64,000 bases of DNA from assembly GCF_014646815.1 (NCBI RefSeq), contig NZ_BMNZ01000001.1, forward strand, positions 186,001 through 250,000. The letters run 5' to 3'. Shown here piece by piece: positions 1,306 to 61,661 of this stretch; positions within the stretch are counted from its first letter, which is position 1; the number at the start of each line of letters is the position of its first letter. The position numbers were made by a program, and so were the translations under genes. Below the pieces are notes generated by a model. That model did no database searches and was not told the origin of the DNA. It worked only from the letters and a program-made list of their open reading frames with translations. Origin of the DNA: Terrabacter tumescens. GTDB taxonomy: Bacteria > Actinomycetota > Actinomycetes > Actinomycetales > Dermatophilaceae.

Positions 1306-1350
1306 ATGACGTATGCCGTCCGCCCACCTCGGGCGGACGGCATACGTCAT
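1306..1350. repeat. Perfect 20-bp inverted repeat carrying GTATGCC/GGCATAC
   Basis: Arms at 1306-1325 and 1331-1350 are perfect reverse complements around a 5-nt loop (ACCTC). It lies 28 bp after the lpd stop. As RNA it is a very stable hairpin but lacks a U tract. Each arm contains one copy of the heptamer that recurs throughout the window. Confidence 0.85.
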
Positions 1351-1382
1351 CTCGTGGTCGCGGGGGCACGACAGCACAGACA

Positions 1383-1419
1383 GCACGAAGCCCCCGCGGT
1401 GACCGCGGGGGCTTCGTGC
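1383..1419. terminator. Bidirectional terminator hairpin between lpd and the small membrane gene
   Basis: An 18-bp perfect inverted repeat (1383-1400 against 1402-1419) with core CCCCCGCGG/CCGCGGGGG sits between two convergent genes. This is the typical U-less actinobacterial terminator form. Confidence 0.75.
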
Positions 1420-1441
1420 ACTTGCCGGTTCCTGCGACCGA

Positions 1442-1600
1442 TCAGTACCAGTGCTTCCTGCCACCGATGGCGCGACCCGTCGCACCGAGCACGAAGAGCA
1501 CGATGCCAATCACCAGGATGATTGCGCCGATGGTCACAAGGATGCTGAGGGACTTCACCAGAAGTCCGATGATCAGCAAGATGAGTCCGAGAACGATCAT
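1442..1600 (-). CDS. Small two-helix membrane protein, DUF6131-like
   Basis: A 52-residue protein beginning MIVLGLILLIIG, with two hydrophobic stretches (about residues 1-16 and 20-40) and a basic tail ending GGRKHWY, resembling the actinobacterial DUF6131 small membrane proteins. Function is unknown. I chose the ATG at 1600 because AAGGAG lies upstream of it; an in-frame TTG at 1639 would add 13 residues but has no good ribosome site. It converges on lpd across the terminator at 1383-1419. The nucleotide sequence is noticeably less GC-biased than its neighbours, which is partly due to Ile/Leu codons. Confidence 0.7.
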   Translation of the reverse strand: MIVLGLILLIIGLLVKSLSILVTIGAIILVIGIVLFVLGATGRAIGGRKHWY

Positions 1601-1775
1601 GGTGTCGCTTAGCTCCTTCAAGATGGATTCCCCGAGCAATTGACGACGTACCCAAGCCGTGGCAGTCCTCGAACACCTCCACGGTCACGAAACGATCACG
1701 TGGCGGCGACGAGGTCACGTCGGCGTCGGGGCGTGGGGTGGGCTGGGCCGATTAGGGGCGTACGAACCCCACTGT

Positions 1776-1781
1776 TACGCT
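1776..1781 (+). promoter_or_regulatory. Candidate -10 element for rpsO
   Basis: TACGCT (TANNNT type) lies about 95 bp before rpsO in the 1601-1875 intergenic stretch. No clear -35 was seen. The rest of this stretch holds nothing else I recognise. Confidence 0.3.
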
Positions 1782-1875
1782 TGGAGACGCCGTAGACCGG
1801 CCGCGGACCGATAGCGCCCAGGTGGACATGCCCTGGAGCACCGCGCAACGAGAATGAGAAGGAGTCGGTTCATCC

Positions 1876-2145
1876 ATGCCTTTGGACGCTGACGTGAAGA
1901 AGCAGATCATGACCGAGTACGCCACGGTCGAGGGCGACACCGGCTCTCCCGAGGTCCAGATCGCGATGCTGACGCAGCGCATCAAGGACCTGACCGAGCA
2001 CTCGCGTGCCCACAAGCACGACCACCACAGCCGTCGTGGTCTCCTCCTGCTGGTCGGCCGCCGCAAGCGCATGCTGCGCTACCTCGAGGCGACCGACATC
2101 GAGCGCTACCGTTCGCTGATCAAGCGACTCGGCCTGCGTCGATGA
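1876..2145 (+). CDS. rpsO: 30S ribosomal protein S15
   Basis: An 89-residue protein of full family length. The hallmark segments [26 protein letters not shown] and the C-terminal [12 protein letters not shown] are intact. S15 binds 16S rRNA at the central domain three-way junction early in 30S assembly. A GAAGGAG ribosome site precedes the ATG by about 11 nt. As in most bacteria it precedes pnp, from which it is separated by a strong hairpin at 2152-2196. Confidence 0.97.
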
Positions 2146-2151
2146 GTTCGT

Positions 2152-4665: not shown

Positions 4666-6294
4666 TCAGAAGACGAGGTTGACGATGTTCCAGCCCGTGC
4701 CGAGCAGCTGTCGTGCCTGCCAGCCGGTCGTCGTGCGCGGGTAGAGCCACAGGCTGCCGGAGCCGTCACGGACGACGATGTCGGGCACCCGGTCGCCGTT
4801 GAGGTCGCCGGGGCTCGTCAGGGACGTCATCGAGCCCCAGCCCGTGCCGAGCCGGACGCGGGCGAGCAGCCCGCCGGTGCCGTTGCCCGGGTAGAGCCAG
4901 AGGTAGCCGGTCGCGCGCTCCCGGACCACGAGGTCCGCGCGGCCGTCCCCGTTGACGTCGCCCGGTCCGGCGAAGCCGTTCATGGCGTTCCATCCGGCAC
5001 CGAGGCGCACTCGAGCACCCCACCCGCCACGACCGTTGCCGGGGTAGAGGAACAGCTCACCGGTCGACGCGCGTCGGGCGAGGACGTCGACGCGCTGGTC
5101 CCCGTTCCAGTCGCCGACGCCGACGACCGCGTCGAAGATGCCCCAGCCGGTGCCGACCCGCACGCGGGGGAGTGCCCACCCGCCCTTGCCGTTGCCTCGG
5201 TAGAGCCAGAGGTAGCCGGTCGATGTCTCCCTCGTGAGGACGTCGGCGGCCCCGTCGCCGTCGAAGTCACCGACCGTCTCGAGGGAGGCGAAGGCGCCCC
5301 AGCCGGCGCCCAGCAGCACACCGGTGCCGATGCCACCGGTCCCGTTGCCGGCGTAGAGGCGCAGGGTGCCCGTCGACGTCCAACGGGCGAGCAGGTCGTT
5401 CTTCCAGTCGCCGTTGAAGTCGGCTGTGCTGCCCGACAGCGTCGCCGGCGGAGCGGGGAACGAGGTGAAGGTGTACGGCTCGCACGTGCGGTCGTAGTCA
5501 CGCGTCGCGTCCCACCACTGGGCGAGGTAGGGGCGCCCGCCCGAGAAGCTGGGCTGCGTGCACCGATCGAGGGCCTCGGTCGGGTAGTCGAGGGTGCCCG
5601 CGGTCGCCCACACCGGCACGCCGGGCAGCCACCACGAGCCCGTGATCGCCTGCCAGCCGGAGGTGTTGGAGTACAGCCCGTAGGCGAAGCCTGCCTCCTT
5701 GAGCCCGCGCATGATCCCCTCGATGACGTAGCGGTTCTCGAGGCGCTGTGCGGCCGAGGTCGATGGCCAGGGCTGGGCGCTCCGGGGCTCGACGTCGATC
5801 CACACGACCGGCGGGTGCCAGGAGATGCGCCCGAGGCTCGCGACGGCATACCTCGCCTCGGCGTAGCCGACGTTGGACAGCCGGCCCGCGCGCGTCGTCG
5901 TCCGCCACGGTCCGCTCGCGCCGTAGGTCGTCAGCTGCGCGGTCGTCGGGAAGCCGGCCATCGTGTAGGCGTGCGCCGGCCGGGAGTTGGTGCGCACCCA
6001 GGAGATCTGGCTCGCCAGGCAGGGGTTCTCGGTGAACGGCAGCCCCTTCGTCAGGCCGAGGATGACGAACCCCGTGGTGGTCGGCGGCATCGGCAGCCCG
6101 TAGCCGCCCACCGACGTCGGGCACTGTGGCCAGGAGATGTCGTGGCCCAGCACCACGGCCGCGCGGGCCGGCGGCGCGTTCCCGACGGCGAGGACGCCGG
6201 TGACGAGCGCGAGGGCGCTGAGGCACGCGAGCAGGCGCGAGACGCTGCGGCGCACGACGGACCGGTCACGCGAGACGGGCATGTTGTCGGACAT
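4666..6294 (-). CDS. Secreted GH25-like (DUF1906-type) protein with five FG-GAP/VCBS repeats
   Basis: A 542-residue secreted protein. Residues 1-45 are a signal peptide (basic start, hydrophobic ALALVTGVLAV, cleavage near PARA-AVV). Residues 46-275 begin GHDISWPQCP and contain VVWIDVEPRS, resembling TIM-barrel GH25/DUF1906 glycoside hydrolase-like domains, so muralytic or polysaccharide-binding activity is possible but not shown. From about residue 290 there are five 49-51-residue repeats, each with a calcium-type loop (DFNGDW, DFDGDG, DWNGDQ, DVNGDG, DLNGDR) followed by a TG-LWLYPGNG-like segment; these form an FG-GAP beta propeller. The ATG at 6294 is preceded by GGAGGAA at good spacing; a GTG three codons upstream is too close to that site. 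It stands alone and diverges from dapB. Confidence 0.75.
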   Translation of the reverse strand: MSDNMPVSRDRSVVRRSVSRLLACLSALALVTGVLAVGNAPPARAAVVLGHDISWPQCPTSVGGYGLPMPPTTTGFVILGLTKGLPFTENPCLASQISWVRTNSRPAHAYTMAGFPTTAQLTTYGASGPWRTTTRAGRLSNVGYAEARYAVASLGRISWHPPVVWIDVEPRSAQPWPSTSAAQRLENRYVIEGIMRGLKEAGFAYGLYSNTSGWQAITGSWWLPGVPVWATAGTLDYPTEALDRCTQPSFSGGRPYLAQWWDATRDYDRTCEPYTFTSFPAPPATLSGSTADFNGDWKNDLLARWTSTGTLRLYAGNGTGGIGTGVLLGAGWGAFASLETVGDFDGDGAADVLTRETSTGYLWLYRGNGKGGWALPRVRVGTGWGIFDAVVGVGDWNGDQRVDVLARRASTGELFLYPGNGRGGWGARVRLGAGWNAMNGFAGPGDVNGDGRADLVVRERATGYLWLYPGNGTGGLLARVRLGTGWGSMTSLTSPGDLNGDRVPDIVVRDGSGSLWLYPRTTTGWQARQLLGTGWNIVNLVF

Positions 6295-6406
6295 GGCGAC
6301 CACTTCCTCCCATCCCAGTGTGCGTCGGCCGAGCGGCCTCGGCAGCGATGTGTGAGCGACGAGTCCGTATGCCGTGTGCGCCCGACGGGCGTGCGACCCG
6401 GCTCGT

Positions 6407-6418: not shown

Positions 6419-7207
6419 GTGAGCGACACGACACGCAACCCGTCCCGCGACACCAAGGTCGCCGTCATCGGGGCCAGCGGCCGGATGGGTTCCGAGGCGG
6501 TGCGGGCCGTCGAGAGCGCCCCGGGCCTGTCCCTCGTCGGGGCCTACGGGTCCGGCGACGACCTCGGTGACCTCGGCGGCGCCGACGTCGCCGTGGAGCT
6601 GACCGTGCCGGGAGCCTCGCCCGCCAACGTCACCCACTGCGTCGAGCGCGGCATCCACGTCGTCGTCGGCACCACCGGCTGGGACGACGCTCGGCTCGAG
6701 ACCCTGCGGGGCCAGCTCGCCGAGGCGCCGCCGGCGGCCACCGGGGCAGGCGTCGGCGTGCTCATCGCGCCGAACTTCGCCATCGGGGCCCTGCTCATGA
6801 TGTCGTTCGCCGCCAAGGCCGCTCCCTTCTTCGAGTCGGTCGAGGTCATCGAGCTGCACCACCCGGCCAAGGTCGACGCACCGTCCGGGACAGCCGCGCG
6901 CACGGCAGCGATGATCGGCAGGGCCCGGTCCGAGGCCGGCTGCGACCCGGTGCCCGACGCCACGACCCACGACCCGGACGGTGCCCGCGGCGCCCGGCTG
7001 GACGGCATACCCGTGCACTCGGTGCGGTTGCGCGGGCTGACCGCGCACCAGGAGGTGCTGCTCGGCAACGCGGGCGAGATGCTGACCCTGCGGCACGACT
7101 CGTTCGACCGGGGCAGCTTCATGCCGGGCGTCATCGCCGCGGTGCGCGCCGTGGCCGACCACCCGGGCCTCACGGTCGGGCTCGAGCACTACCTCGGCCT
7201 CGCCTGA
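6419..7207 (+). CDS. dapB: 4-hydroxy-tetrahydrodipicolinate reductase
   Basis: A 262-residue cytoplasmic enzyme that reduces hydroxy-tetrahydrodipicolinate with NAD(P)H in lysine and diaminopimelate synthesis, feeding the cell wall. The N-terminal Rossmann motif is VIGASGRMG (residues 15-23). [15 protein letters not shown] contains the catalytic His and Lys region and the substrate-binding PSGTA. Length is normal. The GTG start is placed 6 nt after a TAGGGT hexamer, so the mRNA is probably leaderless. It is followed after 29 bp by trhO. dapA lies about 9.7 kb downstream, displaced by the paa and azl blocks. One Ile codon is the rare ATA, inside a GGCATAC motif at 7004-7010. Confidence 0.96.
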
Positions 7208-8782: not shown

Positions 8783-9501
8783 GGCGTCTCCCTCCTCGGC
8801 GTCCGCCAGGCCAGCAGCGATGCGGCCGCCGCCACGACGACGGGTATGCCGGGCGGCATCGTCGGTGACAGCACGATCGCCACGACGGCGCCCAGGACGG
8901 CGATGGCGACCGCGTCCCGGTCCCGCAACCGCGGCCACAGCAGGGCGGTGAACGCCGCACAGGCCGCGGCGTCGAGACCGTAGGTGCGGGGGTCGCCGAT
9001 GTGCGTGCCGACGACGGTGCCGACGAGCGTGGTGAGGTTCCACAGGACGAAGACGGTCAGTCCGGTGACCCAGAAGCCGAGGCGGGAGGTGCGCGCGTCG
9101 TCCTGGGCCACGGCCACGGCCGTCGACTCGTCGATGGTCAGGTGGGCCGCGGCGACCCGGCGCGGACCGCGCGCCCCGAGCAGGTGGGTCAACTCGAGGG
9201 CGTAGAGCCCGTTGCGGATGCCGAGCATCGAGGACGCGGCGATCGCCGCCGGCGCCGCGTGCAGCCCGTTCGCGATGATGCCGACGAACGCGAACTGCGA
9301 CCCGCCGGTGAACATCAGCAGCGACAGCGCCATCGCCTGCCACGTGTCCAGCCCGGCAGCGACCGCGAGCGCCCCGAAGCTGAGGCCGTAGGCGCCGGTC
9401 GCGACGCCCACCGACAGCGCCTGCCGCACGACGGCACGCCGTGCCGTCGGGTCAGCCTGGACAGCCGGGTCTGCCGCGTCGGATCCTGCGGATGCGGTCA
9501 C
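8779..9501 (-). CDS. azlC: AzlC-type branched-chain amino acid exporter, large subunit
   Basis: A 240-residue polytopic membrane protein. The signature GVATGAYGLSFGALAV (about residues 32-47), LLMFTGGSQFAFVG (about 61-74) and the SSMLGIRNGLYAL segment are intact, followed by further hydrophobic helices to the C terminus. Together with AzlD it should export branched-chain amino acids. It is coupled to azlD downstream (4-bp overlap) and to the acetyltransferase gene upstream (4-bp overlap). Confidence 0.92.
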   Translation of the reverse strand: MTASAGSDAADPAVQADPTARRAVVRQALSVGVATGAYGLSFGALAVAAGLDTWQAMALSLLMFTGGSQFAFVGIIANGLHAAPAAIAASSMLGIRNGLYALELTHLLGARGPRRVAAAHLTIDESTAVAVAQDDARTSRLGFWVTGLTVFVLWNLTTLVGTVVGTHIGDPRTYGLDAAACAAFTALLWPRLRDRDAVAIAVLGAVVAIVLSPTMPPGIPVVVAAAASLLAWRTPRRETP

Positions 9502-10151
9502 TCCGGCTCCGTGCCCCCGCTGTCCTCGCCGGGAGTGCCGTCCTCGCCGTCGACGACGGCCGCCGACAGGCGGACCTCACCGGTGGTCTCGCCGTCCTGC
9601 GACACCACCCGCTCGCGGTGCGCACCGTCGGCCACCATCCCGGCTGCGGTGAGGAACCCCCGGGTGGCGTCGTCGCTCGCCAGCACCCAGGCGGCGAGCT
9701 CGGAGCGGCCGCGGCCCCGGGTCGTGTCGACGACGGCGTGCAGCAGCCGTGAGCCGTGCCCCTGGCGGCGCGCGTCCGGGTGCACGCCGAGGACGAGCAG
9801 CTCCGCAGTGCCGGGATCGGCGTCGGCGTCGTCGGAGGCGCCGACCGCGGCGAACCCGACCACCTGCTCGCCCGCGCAGGCGACGAGCAGCACGCCGTCG
9901 CCGGACTGCTCGCCCTCGAGCGTCGCGCGCCAGGCGTTGGCGAAGGCCCGCGGCTCGAAGGTCGCGATGACCTCGGGTGCGAGCGTGGCGGCATACGCCT
10001 CCCGGAAGACGACGGCCTGCACGAGCCCGACGGCGGGGGCGTCCGAGGCGCGGGCGACCCTGACCGACGCGTCGGCGACGGGGCCGCGCTCGTGCTGGTG
10101 GTCGTGCCCGTGGTCGTGCTGGTGTCCGTTCGAGTGCTCGTGTGCCACCAC
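9498..10151 (-). CDS. GNAT family N-acetyltransferase with His-rich N terminus
   Basis: A 217-residue protein. Residues 1-23 are a metal-binding-like tail with nine His ([18 protein letters not shown]). Residues 28-180 form a GNAT domain: beta-strand start [13 protein letters not shown], then [20 protein letters not shown], the acetyl-CoA pyrophosphate loop, near residue 130. The substrate is unknown. It is the first gene of the azlCD operon (4-bp overlap), so it may modify an amino acid or analogue that the exporter removes; this is inference. Two adjacent GTG codons (10151, 10148) could start it; GAGAGGA lies just upstream and suits the second slightly better. Confidence 0.82.
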
Positions 10152-12447: not shown

Positions 12448-12953
12448 CTGTCGTGACCGCGGAGTCCGCTGTGGCACAGGCGATCTCGCGCATCCCCGAC
12501 CCGGAGGTGCCCGTTATCAGCATCGCCGACCTCGGCATCCTGCGTGCGGTCGACGTGGACGAGCAGGCACACACCGTGACCGTGACGGTCACACCCACCT
12601 ACAGCGGGTGCCCGGCCATGGAGGCCATCGCGTCGCGCATCGTCTTCGAGGCCGACCGTCAGGGGTATGCCGCCGACGTCCGCACGCAGCTGTCGCCGGC
12701 CTGGACGACCGACTGGATGAGCGACGAAGGTCGAGCAGCCCTGAGCCGCTTCGGCATTGCGCCACCCGGGCCGGCGCCGACGGGGGAGCCCTCCGGTCCC
12801 GTCGCCGTCACGCTGACCCGCCACGTCGTCACCTGCCCGCTCTGCGGGTCCACCGACACCACCGAGATCGCCCACTTCGGCTCGACCGCCTGCAAGGCCC
12901 TGCGCCGGTGCAACGCGTGCCTCGAGCCCTTCGACGAGTTCAAGGCCATCTGA
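12444..12953 (+). CDS. paaD: PaaD, Fe-S/zinc assembly factor for the epoxidase
   Basis: A 169-residue protein with an N-terminal MIP18/DUF59 domain (ISRIPDPEVPVISIADLGILR, residues 11-31; TPTYSGCPAMEAI near 50) and a C-terminal zinc-ribbon-like module (CPLCGST near 129 and CKALRRCNAC near 149). PaaD is required for epoxidase activity and is thought to help mature its iron-sulfur or diiron centres. I chose the GTG that overlaps the paaC stop (GTGA); a GTG one codon upstream and another three codons downstream are also in frame. Confidence 0.92.
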   Translation: MTVVTAESAVAQAISRIPDPEVPVISIADLGILRAVDVDEQAHTVTVTVTPTYSGCPAMEAIASRIVFEADRQGYAADVRTQLSPAWTTDWMSDEGRAALSRFGIAPPGPAPTGEPSGPVAVTLTRHVVTCPLCGSTDTTEIAHFGSTACKALRRCNACLEPFDEFKAI

Positions 12954-14135
12954 ATGACCGACGTCACCACCCCGGCCGCGGCCGAGTCCGCCTCGGCCCC
13001 TGCTCCGAGCACGGCCGCGAGCCCCGCCTCGGCACCTGCCGGCGCCCGCCACCGTGCCCGGTTCCACCCGCTCACCGTCGACTCGGTGGAGCGTCTGACC
13101 GAGGACGCCGTCGCCGTCACCTTCCTCGTGCCGGAGGGCCTCGTCGAGGAGTTCGCCTTCGAGCCGGGCCAGCACCTGACGCTGCGCGCCACGATCCGCG
13201 GGGAGGACGTGCGCCAGTCCTACTCGATCTGCCAGTCGCGCCGCGCCGACCCTGCCGGGCGTCGCCTGCGGGTCGCAGCGGCCCGGGTGCCCGAGGGCCG
13301 GATGTCCAACTGGCTCAACGACGGGGTCTCGCCCGGTGACGTCGTGGAGGTCATGACCCCCCAGGGCTCCTTCACGTGCGCGACCCGGCCGGACGGCATA
13401 CGCCATCACGTCGCCATCGCGGCAGGCTCCGGCATCACGCCCGTGCTGTCGCTCCTGACGAGCGCCCTCGAGGAGGAGCCCCGCTCGCGCGCGACGCTGC
13501 TCTTCGGCAACCGGCGGACGAGCTCGATCATGTTCCTCGAAGAGCTCGAGGACCTCAAGAACCGGTTCCCCGGACGCTTCCACCTGGTCAACGTGCTCTC
13601 GCGCGAGGCCCAGGACGTCGAGCTCTTCCATGGACGCCTCGACGCCGAACGGCTCACGGCGATCTTCGACACGCTGCTGCCTGTCCGGTCTGTCGACGAG
13701 TGGTACCTCTGCGGGCCGTTCGGGATGGTGACGGGCGCCGAGTCGCTGCTCACGGGTCGCGGCGTCGACGCGCGCCACATCCACCACGAGATCTTCCACG
13801 TCGACGACGGCACCGAGCCGAAGCGCAAGGTCGTCGTCGACGCCGGCGCCCCGCCCGAGGCCACCGTCACGGTCAACCTCGACGGGCGCACGACGGTCAT
13901 CCCGATGCCGAGCCGCGAGGAGACCATCCTCGACGCGACGCTGCGGGCCCGGCCCGACGCGCCCTACTCGTGCACCGGGGGAGTGTGCGGCACGTGCCGG
14001 GCGCGCCTGGTGTCGGGCGAGGTCCGGATGGACCGCAACTACGCCTTGGAGCCCGAGGAGGTCGAGGCCGGCATCTTGCTCGCCTGCCAGAGCCACCCGG
14101 TCACCGACCAGGTCAGCCTCGACTACGACGCCTGA
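12954..14135 (+). CDS. paaE: 1,2-phenylacetyl-CoA epoxidase reductase subunit
   Basis: A 393-residue NADPH-dependent reductase that passes electrons to PaaAC. Residues 1-35 are an Ala/Pro-rich extension. An FAD domain follows (FEPGQHLTLRA, RQSYSICQS), then an NAD(P) domain (AIAAGSGITPVLSLL, about 158-172; YLCGPFGM), then a C-terminal plant-type 2Fe-2S domain with CTGGVCGTC and a fourth Cys in LACQSHP. The start ATG immediately follows the paaD stop. No paaZ, paaK or paaR genes are in the window, so downstream steps are encoded elsewhere. An ATA codon occurs within a GGCATAC motif at 13395-13401. Confidence 0.95.
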   Translation: MTDVTTPAAAESASAPAPSTAASPASAPAGARHRARFHPLTVDSVERLTEDAVAVTFLVPEGLVEEFAFEPGQHLTLRATIRGEDVRQSYSICQSRRADPAGRRLRVAAARVPEGRMSNWLNDGVSPGDVVEVMTPQGSFTCATRPDGIRHHVAIAAGSGITPVLSLLTSALEEEPRSRATLLFGNRRTSSIMFLEELEDLKNRFPGRFHLVNVLSREAQDVELFHGRLDAERLTAIFDTLLPVRSVDEWYLCGPFGMVTGAESLLTGRGVDARHIHHEIFHVDDGTEPKRKVVVDAGAPPEATVTVNLDGRTTVIPMPSREETILDATLRARPDAPYSCTGGVCGTCRARLVSGEVRMDRNYALEPEEVEAGILLACQSHPVTDQVSLDYDA

Positions 14136-16182: not shown

Positions 16183-16662
16183 ATGTCGACCGTGCTGCCC
16201 AACGTCACGATGATCGCCGCCGTCGGGCGCAACGGCGTCATCGGCGACGGACTGACCATGCCGTGGCACCTCTCCGAGGACCTGAAGTTCTTCAAGCGCA
16301 CGACCATGGGCCACCCGATGGTCATGGGCCGCCGCACGTTCGACTCCATGGGCGCGCTCCCCGGCCGGCGGAGCATCGTCATCACCCGCCAGACGGGCTG
16401 GAGCGCGCGCGGCGTCGAGGTCGCGCACTCGCTGCCCGAGGCGTTGGCGCTGGTCGCCGGTGCGGAGCAGGTCTTCGTCGTCGGCGGGGGAGAGGTCTAC
16501 CGCCAGGCGATGGCGTATGCCGCCCGCCTCCTCGTCACCGAGGTCGACCAGTCCCCGGACGGCTCGGTCACCTTCCCGCCGATCGACCCTGTCGACTGGG
16601 TCGAGACGGCGCGCGACGAGCACCCCGGCTTCGCGTGGGTCACCTACGAGCGGCGCGGCTGA
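16183..16662 (+). CDS. folA: Dihydrofolate reductase
   Basis: A 159-residue enzyme reducing dihydrofolate to tetrahydrofolate with NADPH. Signature GVIGDGLTMPWHLSEDLKFFK (substrate site, acidic residue replaced by the usual E-D pair), GHPMVMGRRTFDSMG and FVVGGGEVYRQAM are present. It starts 28 bp after thyA; GAGCCT lies 7 nt before the ATG, so it may have its own leaderless start in addition to readthrough from thyA. Trimethoprim- or methotrexate-class inhibitors act on this family. Confidence 0.96.
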   Translation: MSTVLPNVTMIAAVGRNGVIGDGLTMPWHLSEDLKFFKRTTMGHPMVMGRRTFDSMGALPGRRSIVITRQTGWSARGVEVAHSLPEALALVAGAEQVFVVGGGEVYRQAMAYAARLLVTEVDQSPDGSVTFPPIDPVDWVETARDEHPGFAWVTYERRG

Positions 16663-16738
16663 CACGGCATACGCAGACGTTCAGAAAAATCTTAGGCGCG
16701 GGCTGTAACGCCTGCCGCAGACCCGCGATGTACGGGGT

Positions 16739-22293: not shown

Positions 22294-22504
22294 TGCGACG
22301 ACGATAGGGGGAGGCCTCGCGGACTGTCCACCGGTCGGTCCTCGGGTGTCGCGATCTGAGACGCGGGCAGGCGTGCGACCCCACCCGCGGAGGCTCGGCG
22401 GCCGCGCCGATCGGGCCACCCGGCATACGCGACGGGGTTGCGCCGCCCTCCAGTCGGTCGTCGCTGTTGCGCGTGTGACGCGTGAGTTCAGCGGTGCGTT
22501 GACG

Positions 22505-22510
22505 TACGGT
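22505..22510 (+). promoter_or_regulatory. -10 element of leaderless ftsK
   Basis: TACGGT followed by 6 nt and the ftsK ATG. Confidence 0.55.
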
Positions 22511-22516
22511 GCGAGC

Positions 22517-26316: not shown

Positions 26317-26361
26317 CCGGCTTCGCCCACCGAGGGCGTATGCCGTGTGCCCGGGTGGCGC

Positions 26362-34658: not shown

Positions 34659-34907
34659 GTGCGGATCAGCCACTTCTGGACCTTGATGGACGCCGAGTTC
34701 GGCCCGGCGTATGCCGGGTCGCTCGCCCGCGACCACGTGCTGGGTGCGCTCGGCAACCGCACGGTCGTGCAGGCGCTCGCCGACGGAGAGCCGCCGCGGG
34801 CAGTCTGGGAGGCCCTCTGCACGGACATGGACGTCCCGCCGGAGCGGCGGCTCGGCCGGGACGTCCGGGTGGCCCGCGGGGCCCAGGGCGGTCAGACCGG
34901 CCGCTGA
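34659..34907 (+). CDS. DUF3046 family protein
   Basis: An 82-residue protein beginning MRISHFWTLMDAEFGPAYAGSLARDHVL, then QALADGEPPRAVWEALCTDMDVP. This family is almost always located immediately before recA in actinobacteria, as here. Function is unknown; the conservation of position suggests a link to recA expression or DNA repair, or merely promoter conservation. GTG start chosen by the CACACT spacing. Confidence 0.88.
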   Translation: MRISHFWTLMDAEFGPAYAGSLARDHVLGALGNRTVVQALADGEPPRAVWEALCTDMDVPPERRLGRDVRVARGAQGGQTGR

Positions 34908-45928: not shown

Positions 45929-47434
45929 ATGACGAGCAACCACACCCACACCACCGATGACTCCGCCCGCACTGCGGAGCGTGAGCGCGACCTCTTCGCC
46001 ACCCGCGCCGACGCGCTGGCCGAAAACACCCACGACGGCGCCGAGACGGCATACCCCCTCTACGACGGCGACCAGTTCGACCGCGAGGAGCGTGCCGCTC
46101 TCCGGCGCGTCCAGGGACTGTCGACCGAGCTCGAGGACATCACCGAGGTCGAGTACCGCCAGCTGCGCCTCGAGCGCGTCGTGCTGGCCGGCGTCTGGAC
46201 CGACGGCACGGCCGAGGACGCCGAGAACTCCATCCGCGAGCTCGCGGCCCTCGCCGAGACGGCCGGGTCGACCGTGCTCGAGGGCGTCGTCCAGCGTCGC
46301 CAGAAGCCCGACCCCGCCACGTGGCTCGGCAAGGGCAAGGCCCTCGAGCTGCGCGACATCGTCGTCGAGGAGGGCGCCGACACCGTCATCTGCGACGGCG
46401 AGCTCGCCCCCAGCCAGCGGCGCGCGCTCGAGGACGTCGTCAAGGTCAAGGTCATCGACCGCACCGCCCTGATCCTCGACATCTTCGCCCAGCACGCCAA
46501 GAGCCGCGAGGGTCGCGCCCAGGTCGAGCTGGCCCAGCTGCAGTACCTCCTGCCGCGACTGCGTGGCTGGGGTGAGTCGATGTCCCGTCAGGCCGGTGGC
46601 CGTGTCGCCGGTGGTGAGGGCATCGGTTCGCGTGGACCCGGTGAGACGAAGATCGAGCTCGACCGACGTCGGATCAACACCAAGATCGCCAAGCTGCGCC
46701 GCGACATCAAGGGCATGAAGACGAGCCGCGACACCCGCCGGCACTCGCGTCGGGCGGGCGGTGTCCCGTCGGTCGCCATCGCCGGCTACACCAACGCCGG
46801 CAAGAGCTCGCTGCTCAACCGCCTGACCGGCGCTGGTGTGCTCGTCGAGAACCAGCTCTTCGCGACCCTCGACCCGACGGTGCGCCGCACCGAGACCGAG
46901 GACGGCCGCGTCTACACGCTGGCCGACACCGTCGGCTTCGTGCGCAGCCTGCCGCACCAGCTCGTCGAGGCGTTCCGCTCGACGCTCGAGGAGGTCGGCG
47001 ACTCCGACCTGCTCCTGCATGTCGTCGACGGCTCGCACCCCGACCCCGAGGGGCAGATCTCGGCCGTCCGTGAGGTGCTGGCCGAGGTCGGTGGCGACCA
47101 GATCAAGGAGATCATCGTCGTCAACAAGGCCGATATCGCCGACCCCGAGGTGCTTGACCGCCTCCAGCGGCACGAGAAGCACTGCATCACGGTCTCGGCC
47201 CGCACCGGCGCCGGGCTCGCGGAGCTGCGTGCGCTCATCGACCACGAGCTGCCCAAGCCCGACATCGAGGTCGAGGTGCTCGTGCCCTACGACCGCGGCG
47301 ACCTCATCTCGCGCCTGCACGAGGAGGGCGAGATCCTCGAGAGCGAGCACGTGGCCGAGGGGACCCGGCTGCGCGCCAGGGTCACGCCGACCATGGAGCC
47401 CGACCTCGCGGCCTACGCCGTCGTCGCCAGCTGA
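45929..47434 (+). CDS. hflX: GTPase HflX
   Basis: A 501-residue ribosome-associated GTPase that splits stalled or hibernating 70S ribosomes. The N-terminal HflX domain includes KPDPATWLGKGKALEL and ICDGELAPSQRRALED (near 125-165), then the coiled linker RGPGETKIELDRRRI, and the GTPase domain: AGYTNAGKSSLLNRL (G1, near 287), DTVGFVRSLPHQLVEAF (G3, near 332) and VVNKADIAD (G4, near 399). The ATG is preceded by AGGGAGA. Followed by a strong terminator. Position near miaA/dapF is the standard order. Confidence 0.95.
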   Translation: MTSNHTHTTDDSARTAERERDLFATRADALAENTHDGAETAYPLYDGDQFDREERAALRRVQGLSTELEDITEVEYRQLRLERVVLAGVWTDGTAEDAENSIRELAALAETAGSTVLEGVVQRRQKPDPATWLGKGKALELRDIVVEEGADTVICDGELAPSQRRALEDVVKVKVIDRTALILDIFAQHAKSREGRAQVELAQLQYLLPRLRGWGESMSRQAGGRVAGGEGIGSRGPGETKIELDRRRINTKIAKLRRDIKGMKTSRDTRRHSRRAGGVPSVAIAGYTNAGKSSLLNRLTGAGVLVENQLFATLDPTVRRTETEDGRVYTLADTVGFVRSLPHQLVEAFRSTLEEVGDSDLLLHVVDGSHPDPEGQISAVREVLAEVGGDQIKEIIVVNKADIADPEVLDRLQRHEKHCITVSARTGAGLAELRALIDHELPKPDIEVEVLVPYDRGDLISRLHEEGEILESEHVAEGTRLRARVTPTMEPDLAAYAVVAS

Positions 47435-47676: not shown

Positions 47677-48740
47677 CCGCTCCTGCCGGCGAAGGCTCCG
47701 TCTGGCTGACGACCGAGCGGCTCGCGCTGCGACGTCCTCGTCCCGAGGACCTCGACGACTACGTGCGCGTGCACAACGACCCTCGCACGTACGCCCACTC
47801 GCCGGCGGGCATGCCGAGCCCGGAGCAGTGCCGCGAGCGACTGGCGGCCGACCTCGTCGACTGGCAGCGCGACGAGCTGGGGTATGCCGTCGTCGTCGAC
47901 CGTGCCTCGGGTGACGTCATCGGGTGGGCGGGCTTGCGACACAAGGACTCCGACCACGAGAGCCTCAACCTCTACTACCGGCTCGAGCACGACCGACTCG
48001 GTGCGGGCCTCGGTCGGGAGATCTCCCGTGCCGTCGTCGCGTGGGCCGTCGAGCACCGGCCCGACGCCCTGGTGACGGCGATGGTCGACGAGGTCAACGC
48101 CGCGTCACTGCGCACCGCGGCGTCCGCCGGACTGGTTCGCGTGGGCACCCGGCCCATGAGGGACGAGCCCGACGGCACGCCGATGGCGTACTTCGAGGCG
48201 CCGAGGGTCGCGACCGTGCCACGTGAGGAGGTCACCGACCTCCGGGACGCCGTCGTGGAGCTGTGGCAGCGCGTCAACGACGCCGGCGGCTCGGTCGGCT
48301 TCCTGCCCGGCGCCGCACGCCGCGACGTGGCGGCTGCGTGGGACCGGCACGTCGAGGACGTCGACGCCCGGCGCTCCCTGCTGTGCGTGCTGCGCGACCC
48401 CGACGGCGCCGTGCGCGGCATCGGTCTCTGGGAGCACTCGCGGGGCTTCCCCCACGAGCACGTCGCCGGCCTCAAGCGGCTCATGGTCGACCCGGACGCC
48501 CAGGGACGCAACCTCGGACCCATCCTGCTCGCCGGCATGGTCGGCATCGCGCGGCGCGAGCTGCCGTGGGTCGAGCTGCTCCGCCTCGAGTACCGCGACG
48601 GCCTGGGACTGGGGGAGTTCTACGGCCGCGCGGGGTGGACCGAGGTCGGACGTGTGCCGCGCGGTCTGCGGCTCAGTGCGACGGACTACCGCGACGACGT
48701 CGCGATGGCGCGCCGCGTCGACGGGACCCCGCTGTCGTGA
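47673..48740 (+). CDS. Double GNAT-domain N-acetyltransferase
   Basis: A 355-residue protein with two GNAT domains in tandem. Domain 1 (about 8-178): LTTERLALRRPRPEDLDDYVRVHND, then GWAGLRHKD and a RimJ/RimL-like LGAGLGREISRAVV. Domain 2 (about 182-350): LRDAVVELWQRVND, AGLKRLMVDPDAQGRNLGPILLAGM (acetyl-CoA loop, near 273-292) and FYGRAGWTEVGRVP. Tandem GNAT enzymes include mycothiol synthase and aminoglycoside acetyltransferases, but this does not look like MshD. Substrate unknown. GTG start overlaps the zinc-ribbon stop (GTGA), and the stop overlaps the next start (GTGA). Confidence 0.85.
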   Translation: MTAPAGEGSVWLTTERLALRRPRPEDLDDYVRVHNDPRTYAHSPAGMPSPEQCRERLAADLVDWQRDELGYAVVVDRASGDVIGWAGLRHKDSDHESLNLYYRLEHDRLGAGLGREISRAVVAWAVEHRPDALVTAMVDEVNAASLRTAASAGLVRVGTRPMRDEPDGTPMAYFEAPRVATVPREEVTDLRDAVVELWQRVNDAGGSVGFLPGAARRDVAAAWDRHVEDVDARRSLLCVLRDPDGAVRGIGLWEHSRGFPHEHVAGLKRLMVDPDAQGRNLGPILLAGMVGIARRELPWVELLRLEYRDGLGLGEFYGRAGWTEVGRVPRGLRLSATDYRDDVAMARRVDGTPLS

Positions 48741-51061: not shown

Positions 51062-53302
51062 ATGCCCCAGCGACCCGCGCTCGACGACCTCCTCCACGCC
51101 GCGGTGTCGGGGGTCGGCGGTGCCGAGCGGCCCGGACAGGTCCAGATGGCCAAGGCCGTCGCCCACGCCATCGACGACGGCGAGCACCTGCTCGTGCAGG
51201 CCGGCACCGGCACCGGCAAGTCGCTGGCCTACCTCGTGCCTGCGGTCGCCCACGCCTTCGAGGCGGGCAAGCCTGCCGTCGTGGCGACGGCGACCTTGGC
51301 CCTCCAGGCGCAGATCGTCGACCGCGACATGCCGCGCGTGGCCGACGCCCTGGCGCCGGTCCTCGGCCGGCGTCCCACCTACGCGCTCGTCAAGGGGCGC
51401 CGCAACTACGTGTGCCTCAACAAGCTCGAGGGCGGCTTCCCCGACGACGAGGACGGGCTGCTCTCGGTCGGTCAGGTCGACGCCTCCGTCGGGCGACTCG
51501 GCCAGGAGGTCGTCCGGCTCCGCGAGTGGGCGGGCGCCACGGACTCCGGCGACCGCGACGAGCTCGTGCCCGGCGTCTCCGAGCGGGCCTGGCGCCAGGT
51601 CTCGGTCTCGGCCCACGAGTGCCTGGGCGGCAAGTGCCCGCTGGTCGCGGAGTGCTTCGTCGAGCGCGCCCGCGAGGCCGCCAAGGACGTCGACGTCATC
51701 GTCACCAACCACTCCTTCATGGCCATCGACTCGTTCGAGGGGCGCCAGATGCTGCCCGAGCACGACGTGCTCGTCGTCGACGAGGCGCACGAGCTCGTCG
51801 ACCGCGTCACCGCGACGATCACCGACGAGCTGACCGGCACCATGGTCATGACGGCCGCCAAGAAGGCCGGCCGCATGTCGGAGAACACCGCCGCGATGGA
51901 CGAGGCGGGGGAGCTGCTCGCGCAGGCGCTCGAGCCGCTCGAGGAGGGCCGGATGCTCGGCATCCCGGAGTCCCTCGGGATGGCCCTCGCCCGGGTGCGT
52001 GACACCGCGCGCACGGTCCAGAGCGACCTCAAGCCGCCGCCCGGGCAGGAGGTCGACGGCGCTCGCCAGATCGCCCGCGCGGCGGTCGACGAGGTGCACG
52101 AGAACGCCGAGCGCATCCTCGAGGAGCGCGAGCTCGACGTCGTGTGGTTGAACCGCGACCAGCGCCGCGGGCCGGTCCTGCGCGTCGCGCCGATGAGCGT
52201 CGCGATGCTGGTGCGCGACAAGGTCTTCGAGGAGCGCACGGTCGTGCTCACCTCGGCGACGCTCGAGCTCGGCGGCACGTTCGACTCCGTGGCCGGCACC
52301 ATCGGCCTGCGGGGCGAGGGCGCTCCGAAGTGGCAGGGTCTCGACGTCGGAAGCCCCTTCGACTACCCCAAGCAGGCCATCGCCTACGTCGCGGCCCACC
52401 TGCCGCCGCCCGGCCGCGACGGGGCGGGCGACGACACCCTCGACGAGATCGAGCAGCTCGTCCGTGCCGCCGGCGGCCGCACGCTCGGCCTCTTCTCGTC
52501 GATGCGTGCCGCGCAGACGGCTGCAGAGATCATGCGCGCCCGCTTCGGCGACGACATCCCCGTCCTGTGCCAGGGCGAGGACCAGATCACCACGCTCGTG
52601 CGCCAGTTCGCCCGCGACCCGCGCACCTGCCTCTTCGGCACCCTCACCCTCTGGCAGGGCGTCGACGTGCCCGGCTCGTCGTGCCAGCTCGTCATCATCG
52701 ACCGCATCCCCTTCCCGCGCCCCGACGACCCGCTCGCCTCGGCGCGGTCGCAGGCCATCGCGCGCATGGGCGGCAACGGCTTCATGGCCGTCTCCGCCAC
52801 CCACGCCGCGCTCCGGCTCGCCCAGGGGGCCGGCCGCCTCGTGCGCCGGGCCGACGACCGCGGCGTCGTGGCCTTCCTCGACTCCCGGATGATGACGGCG
52901 AGGTATGCCGGGTTCCTCCAGCGCTCGCTGCCGCCCTTCTACCCGACGACCGACAAGAAGATGGTGCTCGCCGCGCTCGCCCGCCTGGACGCGATGGCTC
53001 CGCCGCCCGTGGCCGTCGAGGAGCCGGCGCTGCGCTCCCTGACCGGGGCACGCGCCGACGCCGACGGCACGGAGCACCCGAGGCCGGTCGCCGTGCCGCC
53101 GCCCCCGCCTGTCTCGTCCCGCAGCGCCGTCACCTCCGGACACGCGTGGACCGACGAGCAGGACGAGGAGCTGCGCGACGCCGCAGAGGCCGGCATGCAG
53201 CTCGACGAGCTCGTCGACCACTTCGAGCTGCCCGAGGAGACCATCGGCGCACGCGTCGAGCAGCTCGGTCTCACCATTGCCACCGGCGCTCTCTTCGACT
53301 GA
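51062..53302 (+). CDS. dinG: ATP-dependent DNA helicase, DinG/XPD-like
   Basis: A 746-residue superfamily-2 iron-sulfur helicase. Motifs: VQAGTGTGKSLAYLVP (I, near 45), TATLALQAQ (Ia), four candidate Fe-S cysteines (NYVCLNKL near 119; ECLGGKCPLVAECF near 191-204), VVDEAHELV (DEAH box II, near 240), VLTSATLEL (III, near 396), and a C-terminal QGAGRLVRRADDRGVV (VI, near 590). The last 60 residues form an extra helical tail (WTDEQDEELRDAAEAGMQLDELVDHF) resembling a small HTH-like module. Such helicases unwind R-loops and recombination intermediates. The start follows TACGCT by 6 nt. Confidence 0.93.
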   Translation: MPQRPALDDLLHAAVSGVGGAERPGQVQMAKAVAHAIDDGEHLLVQAGTGTGKSLAYLVPAVAHAFEAGKPAVVATATLALQAQIVDRDMPRVADALAPVLGRRPTYALVKGRRNYVCLNKLEGGFPDDEDGLLSVGQVDASVGRLGQEVVRLREWAGATDSGDRDELVPGVSERAWRQVSVSAHECLGGKCPLVAECFVERAREAAKDVDVIVTNHSFMAIDSFEGRQMLPEHDVLVVDEAHELVDRVTATITDELTGTMVMTAAKKAGRMSENTAAMDEAGELLAQALEPLEEGRMLGIPESLGMALARVRDTARTVQSDLKPPPGQEVDGARQIARAAVDEVHENAERILEERELDVVWLNRDQRRGPVLRVAPMSVAMLVRDKVFEERTVVLTSATLELGGTFDSVAGTIGLRGEGAPKWQGLDVGSPFDYPKQAIAYVAAHLPPPGRDGAGDDTLDEIEQLVRAAGGRTLGLFSSMRAAQTAAEIMRARFGDDIPVLCQGEDQITTLVRQFARDPRTCLFGTLTLWQGVDVPGSSCQLVIIDRIPFPRPDDPLASARSQAIARMGGNGFMAVSATHAALRLAQGAGRLVRRADDRGVVAFLDSRMMTARYAGFLQRSLPPFYPTTDKKMVLAALARLDAMAPPPVAVEEPALRSLTGARADADGTEHPRPVAVPPPPPVSSRSAVTSGHAWTDEQDEELRDAAEAGMQLDELVDHFELPEETIGARVEQLGLTIATGALFD

Positions 53303-55550: not shown

Positions 55551-55688
55551 GGGAATCACCGTAGCCGCGCCGCCGTTACCGTTGGAGTCCGAGACCGGGT
55601 CGACGGCGATCCGCACCATGCCATCACGCCATCCCGCCGGTGCCACCACCGCCGGACGCCGCCGCACGACCGAACCCGGAGAGACCTC

Positions 55689-56987: not shown

Positions 56988-58142
56988 TCAGGGTCTCCAC
57001 CGGTCGTCGTCCCGTGTGGGGTCGGGCGCGGGCCGGTCGACGGCCCTCTCGCCGGCCCGGTCGCCGGCCCTGTCGACGGCCTCGTCCTCACGCCGAGCCG
57101 GTGCGCCCACGGTCGGCGCCACGTCGACGGGCGAGGCGGCATACGCTCCGTAGGTCTGCTGGACGGCGGCGTAGGCCGGAGCCTCGGCGATGGACGGAGC
57201 CGCCACCTCGAGCGGGGTGGGGACGAAGCCGACCATCGCGGGCAGGGCGTAGGCACCGGGAGCGGCCGGCGTGCCCCAGAGCCACGGCTCCTTCGGGCGC
57301 CAGAGCAAGCGGCCCGGACGGCGCCGGTCGCGCAGGGCGTGCATGCGCCACAGCAGGACGGGGTGGCTCGCGGCGGCGTTGGTGACCCACACGAAGAAGC
57401 CCGGCTCGGTCACGGCGCGGTCCGCCATGGCGTCGACGTCGACCGACCGGCCGAGGTACTTGCCGCCGGCGAGCGTCGCCATGGCCGAGCGGGCGCCCTG
57501 CGGCGCGAGGGCGTGGCCGTAGCTGTCGGCGGTGTACTCCTGCGCGCGGCTGAGGGTCGAGCCGATGAACGGGATCCACTGCGAGGCGAACGTGCCGAGG
57601 ATGCGCCAGTAGCTGACGTGCCCGGCGGCGATGTGGCCGACCTCGTGGGCGATGACGAAGCGCAGCGCGTCGGGCTCGCGCGCCGCGCCGCCGACCTCGA
57701 GCAGGTCGCTGTTGACGAAGACGAAGCGGCGGAAGCCGTGGCCCGACGCGGCGGCGTTGATGACGCCGTTGCCGAGCACGACGTAGGCGTCGGGGACGTA
57801 CGACAGGCCCGACCGCGCGGCCGCGTCGACGAGCATCGAGTAGGCCTCGGGAAACTGCTCGGGCGTCAGCTTGATGCCGCTCAGGCGCTGCTGGGCCCAC
57901 AGCTGCCCGCGCGCGAACCAGACGAGCACCGGGGCGAAGATCAGCGCCAGGGCGTAGACGTCGGGCGTGCGCCGCTGGTCGATCGCGACCGACACCTCCG
58001 AGACGGCCACCACGAGCAGCAGCACCGAGGTGACGACGGCGGCGACGAGCGTCACGATCTCGCGGGGGTGCCGCACGTAGCGGCGCAGCGGCAGGTGCGA
58101 CCCGGGGGCCACGGGCAGGACCTGCATGGGTTGGGCGCGCAT
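56988..58142 (-). CDS. M48 family zinc metalloprotease
   Basis: A 384-residue membrane protease of the HtpX/Ste24 group. Two helices near 30-50 and 62-80 are followed by NGVINAAASGHGFRRFVFVNSDLL, the zinc site FVIAHEVGHIAAGH (HExxH, near 164) and the third ligand in EYTADSYG (near 203). The C-terminal 90 residues are Pro/Ala-rich then charged. M48 proteases degrade misfolded membrane proteins. The ATG at 58142 is 7 nt after CACAAT (58150-58155, minus), a leaderless arrangement; an ATG three codons upstream is also in frame. Confidence 0.9.
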   Translation of the reverse strand: MRAQPMQVLPVAPGSHLPLRRYVRHPREIVTLVAAVVTSVLLLVVAVSEVSVAIDQRRTPDVYALALIFAPVLVWFARGQLWAQQRLSGIKLTPEQFPEAYSMLVDAAARSGLSYVPDAYVVLGNGVINAAASGHGFRRFVFVNSDLLEVGGAAREPDALRFVIAHEVGHIAAGHVSYWRILGTFASQWIPFIGSTLSRAQEYTADSYGHALAPQGARSAMATLAGGKYLGRSVDVDAMADRAVTEPGFFVWVTNAAASHPVLLWRMHALRDRRRPGRLLWRPKEPWLWGTPAAPGAYALPAMVGFVPTPLEVAAPSIAEAPAYAAVQQTYGAYAASPVDVAPTVGAPARREDEAVDRAGDRAGERAVDRPAPDPTRDDDRWRP

Positions 58143-60192: not shown

Positions 60193-60217
60193 CCGTCCTC
60201 GGAGGCACGCGCGGTCG

Positions 60218-60223
60218 TACCGT
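60218..60223 (+). promoter_or_regulatory. -10 element of leaderless AraC-family gene
   Basis: TACCGT followed by 6 nt and a GTG start. Confidence 0.5.
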
Positions 60224-60229
60224 GGTGCC

Positions 60230-61081
60230 GTGGAGGCGGACTCCCCGGACGGTGAGCGGGCCACCCGCGTCGGAGCGACGCGGGTGGAGCACCACGAGCA
60301 CGTGCCCACCGCTCGGCTGTCCGGACTCGTCGAGCGTGCCGTCGGCTACCGCCTGTCGGGCTTCCCTGCGGGGATCCACGTCGGTATGCCGTCCCGCACC
60401 GTCACGCTGGTCGTGCCCCTGGGGCAGCCGCTGACGGTCGCCGACCCTGGTGGGCTACCCCGGATCCACAGCTCGGTCGTCGCCGGCCTGAGTGCGGCGC
60501 CCTCCCACATCCACCACGACGGCGCCCAGCACGGCGTCCAGCTGGCCCTGCGCCCGGAGGCGGTCCGTGCCCTGTTCGGGATGCCGGCCGCGGAGCTCGC
60601 CTCGCGCTCCTACGACCTCGCGGACGTCGTCGGGGCGCAGGCGCACAGCCTGCGCGACCAACTCCACGGCGCTGAAGCGTGGCCCGACCGCTTCGCGCTC
60701 GTCGACGACTGGCTCGTGGGACTGCTCGACGGTGCCCCACGTCTCGGCACGCCTGAACCCGAGGTCCTCGAGGCGTGGCGGCTCATCGGCGTCTCCGGGG
60801 GATCGGTGCCGGTCCGCGACGTGGCCGCGCGCGTGGGCTGGTCGATGCGGCGGTTGCAGTCGCGGTTCCGGCACGAGTTCGGGGTCAGCCCCAAGACCGC
60901 GGCGGTGCTCCGTCGGTTCGAGCGGTCCGTGCCGCTCGTCGCCGGTCGCCGGCATGCCCTGACCGAGGTCGCGCTGCGATGCGGCTGGACCGACCACGCA
61001 CACATGGACCGGGACTGGCGCGCGCTGGCAGGCACCTCGCCGATGCGGTGGCGGACCGAGGACGTGCTGGTCGCCCACTGA
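60230..61081 (+). CDS. AraC family transcriptional regulator
   Basis: A 283-residue regulator with an N-terminal sensing domain (about 20-150, GFPAGIHVGMPSRTVTLVVPLG) and a C-terminal double helix-turn-helix (about 195-278): VRDVAARVGWSMRRLQSRFRHEFGVSPKTAAVLRRF and LTEVALRCGWTDHAHMDRDWRALAGTSPMRW. The domain layout matches regulators found beside small VOC-family genes, and the next gene is one. The GTG start is 6 nt after TACCGT. Confidence 0.88.
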   Translation: MEADSPDGERATRVGATRVEHHEHVPTARLSGLVERAVGYRLSGFPAGIHVGMPSRTVTLVVPLGQPLTVADPGGLPRIHSSVVAGLSAAPSHIHHDGAQHGVQLALRPEAVRALFGMPAAELASRSYDLADVVGAQAHSLRDQLHGAEAWPDRFALVDDWLVGLLDGAPRLGTPEPEVLEAWRLIGVSGGSVPVRDVAARVGWSMRRLQSRFRHEFGVSPKTAAVLRRFERSVPLVAGRRHALTEVALRCGWTDHAHMDRDWRALAGTSPMRWRTEDVLVAH

Positions 61082-61134
61082 GCGCCCGCGGGCCTCGCGC
61101 GCATTCGTCCAAGACAGGCCGGTCGGGGTGGCCG

Positions 61135-61140
61135 CAGGGT
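61135..61140 (+). promoter_or_regulatory. -10 element of leaderless VOC gene
   Basis: CAGGGT followed by 6 nt and the ATG. Confidence 0.4.
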
Positions 61141-61146
61141 GGAGCC

Positions 61147-61626
61147 ATGGACAACGAGATGAGCTCAGGCAGCAGGACCACCATCGGGACGGACGGCGAG
61201 GCGGCAGCGGGTGTCGGAGCGGGAACCGTTGCGGCACAAGCGGGCCGTGACCACAACGTCTGGGTCGGTCTCAGCTACGAGGACCCGCTCGCCGCGCGCG
61301 AGTGGCTGCGCGCCCTCGGCTTCGTCGACGGCGTCGTCGTGCCGGGGGAGGCTCCCGGCGAGATCAGGCACAGTGAGATGCTCTGGCCCGAGGGCGGCCG
61401 CGTCATGGTCAGCAGCCGCGCGCGGACCGACCCCGCCTTCGTGTCGGCACCGGGGGCGGCGACGGTCTACGTCGTCGTCGATGATCCCGACCCGGTCTGG
61501 GAGCGGGCCCGGCGCCTCGGCGCCGTCGTGCAGCGTCCGCTCGAGGAGACGGACTATGGATCCCGCGGCTTCTCGGTGGTGGACCCGGAGGGCACGAGCT
61601 GGAGCTTCGGCACCTACGCGGGCTGA
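61147..61626 (+). CDS. VOC (glyoxalase/bleomycin-resistance) superfamily protein
   Basis: A 159-residue protein. After a disordered 35-residue start, the VOC fold begins VWVGLSYEDPLAAREWLRALGFVDG (near 38-62), continues with EIRHSEMLWPEGGRVMVSSR, and ends RGFSVVDPEGTSWSFGTY (near 140-157). This pattern is typical of the PhnB/YkcA-like group; metal-binding His and Glu positions are present. Substrate unknown; antibiotics or aldehyde conjugates are possibilities. Located just after an AraC regulator that likely controls it. Confidence 0.85.
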   Translation: MDNEMSSGSRTTIGTDGEAAAGVGAGTVAAQAGRDHNVWVGLSYEDPLAAREWLRALGFVDGVVVPGEAPGEIRHSEMLWPEGGRVMVSSRARTDPAFVSAPGAATVYVVVDDPDPVWERARRLGAVVQRPLEETDYGSRGFSVVDPEGTSWSFGTYAG

Positions 61627-61661
61627 CGGCATACGACAGCGCGTGACGGGTCCCGGACGGC

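Follow-up and report, generated by a model that had tools for sequence, protein, structure and literature searches.

The 64,000-nucleotide stretch of Terrabacter tumescens DNA analysed here (the window; contig NZ_BMNZ01000001.1, positions 186,001 to 250,000) carries a short word that recurs both within genes and between them. An initial annotation had listed 33 copies of the heptamer GGCATAC or its complement GTATGCC, with about six expected from base composition. All 33 lie exactly where it placed them (17 GGCATAC and 16 GTATGCC), base composition predicts 5.9, and every copy sits inside the non-palindromic octamer CGGCATAC (reverse complement GTATGCCG), which is the unit of the repeat. This octamer resembles a DNA uptake sequence (DUS) or uptake signal sequence (USS), and may function as one.

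Two of the copies, both exact, form the arms of a perfect intergenic hairpin (1305..1351; 21-bp stem, 5-nt loop) that begins 27 bp past the end of predicted gene 3-1277: one lies on the minus strand in the left arm (1311..1318) and the other on the plus strand in the right arm (1338..1345). The fold of 1303-1357 has an energy of -45.9 kcal/mol and a z-score of -9.6. Further intergenic copies are found on the minus strand at 6367..6374 and 26338..26345 and on the plus strand at 16665..16672, 22421..22428 and 61627..61634, the last directly after a predicted gene ending at 61626. Within genes, copies in the TAT-GCC frame occur on the plus strand at 5844..5851, 27258..27265, 44757..44764 and 57137..57144, and on the minus strand at 12665..12672, 16515..16522, 22951..22958, 23908..23915, 25201..25208, 28828..28835, 34709..34716, 43814..43821, 47882..47889 and 52903..52910. 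The GCA-TAC frame is used at 19799..19806, 24255..24262 and 46047..46054 (plus) and at 21956..21963 (minus), the CGG-CAT frame at 43423..43430 (plus) and the ATG-CCG frame at 60384..60391 (minus). Copies that supply an ATA codon lie at 7003..7010, 9989..9996, 13394..13401, 32095..32102 and 42612..42619 (plus) and at 8844..8851 (minus); the copy at 42612..42619 falls in the sulfate permease gene 41683-43449, as the initial annotation had stated for sulP. Gene coordinates here and below come from a simple in-house codon-usage caller, with the curated annotation left unused.

The enrichment extends across the genome. In 4.7 Mb, CGGCATAC occurs 2358 times (1200 + 1158; about one copy per 2 kb) against 88 + 111 for the reversed word, and GGCATAC occurs 1259 + 1196 times against 148 + 176. 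A 464-kb sample, consisting of the window and 20 stretches of 20 kb from the same genome, contains 241 GGCATAC heptamers, of which 235 belong to CGGCATAC; beyond the octamer there is only a weak flanking preference, for A or G before it and G after it. The 235 copies compare with expectations of 7.4 under an order-2 Markov model, 10.9 at order 3 and 7.0 under a codon-usage null, and CGGCATAC ranks first among octamers under all three. An order-5 model of the window shows no enrichment (33 seen, 32.5 expected), and is uninformative because the embedded hexamers are mostly motif. The over-representation claimed for the heptamer is thus confirmed, with the octamer as its unit. Samples whose genes could not be called (intergenic fraction 1.00) were ignored in codon-usage-null comparisons, loci below 15 kb were excluded from the octamer ranking under that null, and loci below 9 kb from another locus comparison. 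Three short stretches (578, 5732 and 347 bases) were dropped from one set of 20; in other sampling sets four of 20 stretches did not exist and two measured ∼6.3 kb, and elsewhere one of 20 did not exist.

In the 464-kb sample, the octamer favors permissive sites. Fully intergenic sites number 64 of 235 in a sample that is 89% coding and ∼10.7% intergenic, a ∼2.5-fold excess (binomial p 2e-12), and another four sites overlap gene edges. Copies outside whole genes total 68, against 0.8 expected from the codon-usage null. Of the 64 fully intergenic sites, convergent gene pairs account for 13 (in 5.9 kb of spacer), tandem pairs for 31 (25.4 kb) and divergent pairs for 20 (14.2 kb), and 25 of the 31 tandem sites lie closer to the end of the upstream gene. 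Within genes, three frames hold 154 of the 167 coding sites: G-TAT-GCC-G (Tyr-Ala, 104), CG-GCA-TAC (Ala-Tyr, 31) and C-GGC-ATA-C (Gly-Ile, 19). The other three frames share the remaining 13.

This frame choice governs the use of rare codons. ATA appears only 34 times among 138162 codons, 19 of them inside the motif, and all six ATA codons in our gene predictions for the window are motif-supplied, as had been proposed. The motif likewise holds 104 of 200 TAT codons. Tyrosine is encoded by TAT in 104 of 121 G-TAY-GCC-G contexts, compared with 20 of 173 other TAY-GCC contexts and 76 of 2209 other tyrosine codons, which bears out the further observation that TAT GCC stands in place of TAC GCC.

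Conservation of individual sites in relatives, a check that the initial annotation had suggested, was examined by aligning the window to six congeners (G001 and G003-G007; 86-89% identity over 71-85% of the window), and motif codons and intergenic motif bases proved strongly kept. With synonymous outcomes compared, TAT codons are retained in 63 of 72 comparisons inside the motif and in 21 of 72 outside it (nominal Fisher p 7e-13); the six comparisons are not independent, and one codon may count up to six times. Retention of GCA is 19 of 23 inside the motif versus 70 of 332 outside, and that of ATA 27 of 30 inside, with zero outside-motif ATA codons available for comparison. Between genes, 180 of 192 motif bases are identical, as compared with 528 of 742 flanking bases. 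When the seven genomes are compared in every ordered pair, TAT is retained in 444 of 526 cases when the context matches the octamer at 8/8 positions and in 56 of 124 when it matches at 7/8. This drop, together with a count of one-mismatch words that shows no clear excess (see below), suggests that maintenance is close to all or nothing.

Neither strand is favored. Copies divide 44+/46- over C1:1-180000 and 46+/42- over C1:186001-370000, so that no replication polarity is evident over 364 kb of one contig, and a related word in another genome (CGGCATCC in G034, see below) divides 53+/58- over six 20-kb regions of one chromosome (main contig 4.0 Mb), again with no polarity. The earlier statement that the motif is not strand-polar therefore stands. 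It had also held that coding and intergenic copies are equal on both strands; this is correct for strand balance, whereas density is unequal, given the intergenic excess. Spacing of CGGCATAC may be more even than chance, with a coefficient of variation (CV) of 0.85 where random placement would give ∼1.

Paired copies resembling the 1305..1351 hairpin recur elsewhere. Intergenic pairs less than 80 bp apart number seven, six of them oriented GTATGCCG...CGGCATAC, and four more pairs that were folded have z-scores of -2.8 to -6.8, the weakest being matched by one of 200 shuffles. Under a strict definition that requires a perfect stem of 11 or more, the motif occurs in five of 15 hairpins from nine named loci; four of these five lie ∼170-240 bp past the pnp match, in Pedococcus, Knoellia (two) and Janibacter. 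The association between motif and hairpin appears modest.

The nearest named relative of this genome by PNPase is Terrabacter sp. MAHUQ-38 (96%), and GGCATAC is enriched in all nine genomes of the genus. Among other family members, 13 of 27 have more than 700 GGCATAC at 2.5 or more times the reversed control, and a 14th, G023, has 1209 copies at a ratio of 1.9. In other families of the order, the count stays at or below 425 in all 22 genomes. In a separate set of 35 named genomes, 11 carry 836 to 2982 copies of CGGCATAC (Terrabacter, two Pedococcus, Intrasporangium, Phycicoccus Soil802, Ornithinimicrobium, three Knoellia, Janibacter HTCC2649 and a Phycicoccus metagenome-assembled genome (MAG)), and in the same set it is unenriched in Phycicoccus avicenniae (18), Janibacter Soil728 (38) and Austwickia (83). 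A sample of 296 genomes from the phylum includes three enriched ones, all Dermatophilaceae, with 1251-2476 copies; a fourth family member, G017, is unenriched (46), and the highest count outside the family is 386 in 7.5 Mb. About half of the sampled genera of the family lack any recognised form of the word.

Several relatives use a variant, or dialect, of the octamer. The form CGNCATAC is found in G011 and G012 (G over T over C), while CGGCATCC replaces CGGCATAC in G034 and G024, with 3949 copies (4.0 Mb) and 3816 copies (5.0 Mb), respectively. Among the genomes searched, G055 (1548) and G009 (1336) come next for CGGCATCC, and members of the Terrabacter genus have 606 to 1239. In G034 and G024, 23% of CGGCATCC copies are intergenic and the rest are spread over several frames; by contrast, three of 83 copies in the T. 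tumescens genome are intergenic and a single frame takes 63 of the 83, the pattern expected from codon usage. In one 22-kb locus of a Phycicoccus MAG, CGGCATTC accompanies CGGCATAC (13 versus 0.8 expected). A further form, CGGCGTAC, occurs in six Nocardioidaceae genomes (four Nocardioides, Marmoricola and one MAG) at 1598-3280 copies versus 114-207 for the reversed word. For MAG G068 (2529 versus 243 reversed), frames and intergenic counts were checked as well. Aeromicrobium, also of the Nocardioidaceae, has 395 versus 158 reversed. In Marmoricola Leaf446, CGGCGTAC is seen 103 times versus 15.3 expected, 14 of them intergenic versus 0.8, and its third position is partly relaxed. Nocardioides TF02-7 has 50 copies versus 13.3, 11 of them intergenic versus 1.8, and the word ranks there below several codon-driven words.

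Two further candidates are not claimed as dialects: CGNCGTCC in G036, which is 3-11% intergenic and falls mostly in two frames, and CGGCATCC in G009, which has 26 of 44 copies in one codon frame and four intergenic. A class-wide survey also places CGGCGTAC about tenfold above the reversed word in several other actinobacterial families; this excess is kept as a lead, because the reversed control is unmatched in composition. Separately, 81 kb of the Demequina MAG G082 contain another enriched word, GCATCGGC/CCGATGCG (72 versus 12.1 expected, with nine intergenic versus 0.8, for GCATCGGC, and 61 versus 9.2 for CCGATGCG). It ranks near the top in L128 and G044 too, and is possibly a further system of the same kind.

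The octamer is scarce around transposases. The 64.6 kb surrounding 21 rve-transposase matches (in seven of nine congeneric genomes) contain 10 copies, whereas the genome average predicts 32. Within the window, 23 copies lie in 37.1 kb common to six relatives, three in 9.6 kb common to four or five, four in 10.9 kb shared with one to three and one in 1.5 kb shared with none, a contrast between shared and unshared DNA that is weak.

The same genome encodes machinery that could read such a word, namely a comEA-comEC operon (L248; SLBB+HHH_3 and PF03772), along with Tad loci in which Flp, TadE, TadB/C-like and TadA parts are present. In Micrococcus luteus, Tad/Flp pili together with ComEA and ComEC serve transformation (PMC6370729, PMC8467076). 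The Tad genes also appear to be targets of mobile elements within the genus. In T. tumescens, a 5.5-kb serine-recombinase element (L249:12212-17690; G000 C6:342212-347690) divides tadA near residue 203. Other recombinase-bearing stretches join tadA near residue 289 in G001, where the stretch includes a phage head protein, and in G006, and one joins tadC in G008. Full-length tadA (405 residues) is present in G003, G004, G005 and G007. Interruptions of tadA or tadC thus affect four of eight congeners (L249, L253, L254 and L259) at three sites, with G002 outside the comparison. Insertions of mobile elements into comK, comYC, comFA, comM and comEC have been portrayed as part of an arms race with transformation (PMC4774983), and the interruptions of tadA and tadC are indirect evidence for a role of the Tad machine in transformation within the genus.

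With these features in hand, we judge the chances to be about even that CGGCATAC, which looks like an uptake sequence of the DUS or USS type, also works like one and is read by a Tad-pilus, ComEA and ComEC machine. In such a system, CGGCATAC would be the Terrabacter-clade form of a genome-wide word marking DNA as self. A surface receptor of the transformation machinery would bind free DNA carrying the word preferentially, the bound DNA would be pulled in by the Tad/Flp pilus and ComEA, and a single strand would pass through ComEC and recombine into the chromosome. Alleles bearing the word would enter cells and recombine more frequently, such that the word might accumulate wherever protein and regulation tolerate it and be restored after mutation. 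Changes in receptor specificity could then change the word and give rise to dialects. That the word is read during uptake, that this drive maintains it, and all that concerns the receptor, we infer from patterns in the genomes.

Comparison with known systems gives both likenesses and differences. The DUS of Neisseriaceae is likewise a short word with thousands of copies, related dialects and permissive or intergenic sites; its inverted pairs form stem-loops (PMC3630211), and it is over-represented in the core genome and absent from recently acquired genes (PMC2734928). However, DUS are 10-12-mers of unrelated sequence, hairpin pairs are fewer here, and Neisseria uses type IV pili and the minor pilin ComP (PMC6370729), whereas the carriers here are Gram-positive actinobacteria with a Tad pilus. 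The USS of Pasteurellaceae shares with CGGCATAC its genome-wide distribution, as a 9-mer with two dialects (PMC12616744, PMC5031613). The octamer differs from it in word and phylum, and in that one-mismatch words show no clear excess here. The USS of Pasteurellaceae has balanced strands, too. The M. luteus system resembles the present one in combining comEA-comEC and tad genes in an actinobacterium (PMC8467076, PMC6370729), but the available portions of these papers mention no uptake word.

The use of such words is said to be known from just two families, both Gram-negative, the Neisseriaceae and the Pasteurellaceae (PMC12616744, October 2025), and other accounts, in the portions available, mention uptake words only for Pasteurellaceae and Neisseria and state that none is reported for mycobacteria (PMC2734928, PMC10526031). 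Of transformation in Actinobacteria, it has been written that "almost nothing is known" (PMC8467076). We found no published report of actinobacterial uptake sequences or of these words in a body of literature lacking most subscription papers and bioRxiv preprints. We put forward only tentatively, as something somewhat short of an even chance, the broader proposal that Dermatophilaceae and Nocardioidaceae share a family of octamers, CGNC(A/G)T(A/C/T)C, whose reader is a competence machine with a Tad pilus, and that these constitute a third, independently evolved uptake-sequence system and the first in Gram-positives, with genus-level dialects that limit gene exchange and phage-like elements that attack tadA and tadC. 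If true, this third case, in another phylum and with another pilus, would permit comparative tests of how such words originate, how dialects shift and how species barriers form, and would point to widespread transformation among soil actinobacteria.

The octamer matches uptake sequences in most testable features, yet several observations weigh against this assignment. Drive should leave some near-misses, but the 24 one-mismatch octamers, four of which never occur, total 297 copies, against 271 expected over the 20 that do, which is no clear excess. Individual words range from 36 seen versus 47.8 expected for CGGCGTAC to 44 versus 23.7 for CGGCCTAC and 83 versus 56.2 for CGGCATCC. The small share of motif in hairpins also fits poorly, with three of 27 strict intergenic hairpins carrying it in 504 kb of G000, a weak association with terminators, and three of 49 doing so in nine other genome samples, each examined for its own form of the word. 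The machinery cannot separate carriers from non-carriers, because ComEC (57 of 58 genomes) and TadE (56 of 58) are nearly universal; most relatives without a recognised word also have both, and across the 58 genomes the presence of ComEC, TadE or Vsr shows no correlation with the motif. Conversely, G034, a strong dialect carrier, yields a single weak TadE match. The split tadA implies that the pilus of the T. tumescens strain may not work. Finally, the four 5-kb stretches at tad genes (L256-L259) contain zero copies of the octamer, which for a single locus may be chance.

Other explanations for the word differ in how much of this evidence they accommodate. The octamer might be of the HIP1 (highly iterated palindrome) kind, kept by an orphan DNA methyltransferase or a linked process, with dialects that follow the enzyme. 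HIP1 is a highly enriched cyanobacterial octamer with lineage variants tied to methyltransferases, and its density of ∼500-2500 copies per million bases spans the ∼500 of CGGCATAC (PMC4390886). HIP1 and its named variants are palindromic and linked to known methyltransferases (PMC4390886), whereas CGGCATAC differs from its own reverse complement, and such a model does not readily accommodate hairpins near gene ends; we consider it unlikely. A site for some other chromosomal protein, involved in nucleoid structuring, recombination or repair and present in thousands of copies, would agree with the exact octamer, the even strands, the CV of 0.85 and the strong maintenance. Dialect shifts at the genus level and scarcity around transposases would be unexpected for a housekeeping site, though possible, and this explanation, too, seems improbable. 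Chi and KOPS (FtsK-orienting polar sequences) are polar along the chromosome, and KOPS are enriched oligomers. Chi sites are a named class of enriched oligomers as well (PMC4390886), and the window contains an ftsK gene (22475-25474). A polar site for RecBCD/AddAB or FtsK does not fit, however, since the octamer has no polarity in the stretches tested, and we regard this explanation as very improbable.

The initial annotation offered two causes for the enrichment. One was selection for a binding or methylation site, and for a binding site it is supported by the conservation, the intergenic excess, the frame choice and the dialects. The other was a Vsr-like bias in mutation or repair by which GTACGCC would become GTATGCC. 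These words are one step apart, the commonest single change in congeners is A>G at position 5 (giving GTACGCCG, 70 of 187 over ordered pairs), and a C-to-T process would also yield the low TAC share of 17 of 121 in the Tyr-Ala frame. The comparison of the two words that the annotation had suggested shows the source heptamer GGCGTAC not to be depleted overall in the 464 kb (89 versus 87 at order 2 or 45 at order 3). The source octamer CGGCGTAC has the mild deficit given above, and 2 versus 2.7 intergenic copies where 68 motifs lie. With so few source words, the 235 copies, of which 68 lie wholly or partly between genes, cannot have arisen in this way. Moreover, Vsr (PF03852) is present in 26 of 58 genomes and was not found in the enriched genomes G005, G006, G007, G011, G012, G015, G019 and G030, and dialects differ at positions 3, 5 and 7. 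Maintenance of the word fits these data and Vsr-like mutation does not, leaving the latter scarcely credible. Codon usage or protein composition alone might seem adequate given that 104 of the 167 coding copies are in the Tyr-Ala frame. This explanation, to which we assign practically no weight, is refuted by the intergenic excess over the codon-usage null, and ATA and TAT are rare elsewhere. Whatever reads the octamer, a word that is strongly maintained in thousands of copies and sets the use of rare codons needs an explanation.

Elsewhere in the window, positions 54990-55619 encode a 209-residue protein of the PemK/MazF-like toxin family (PF02452).

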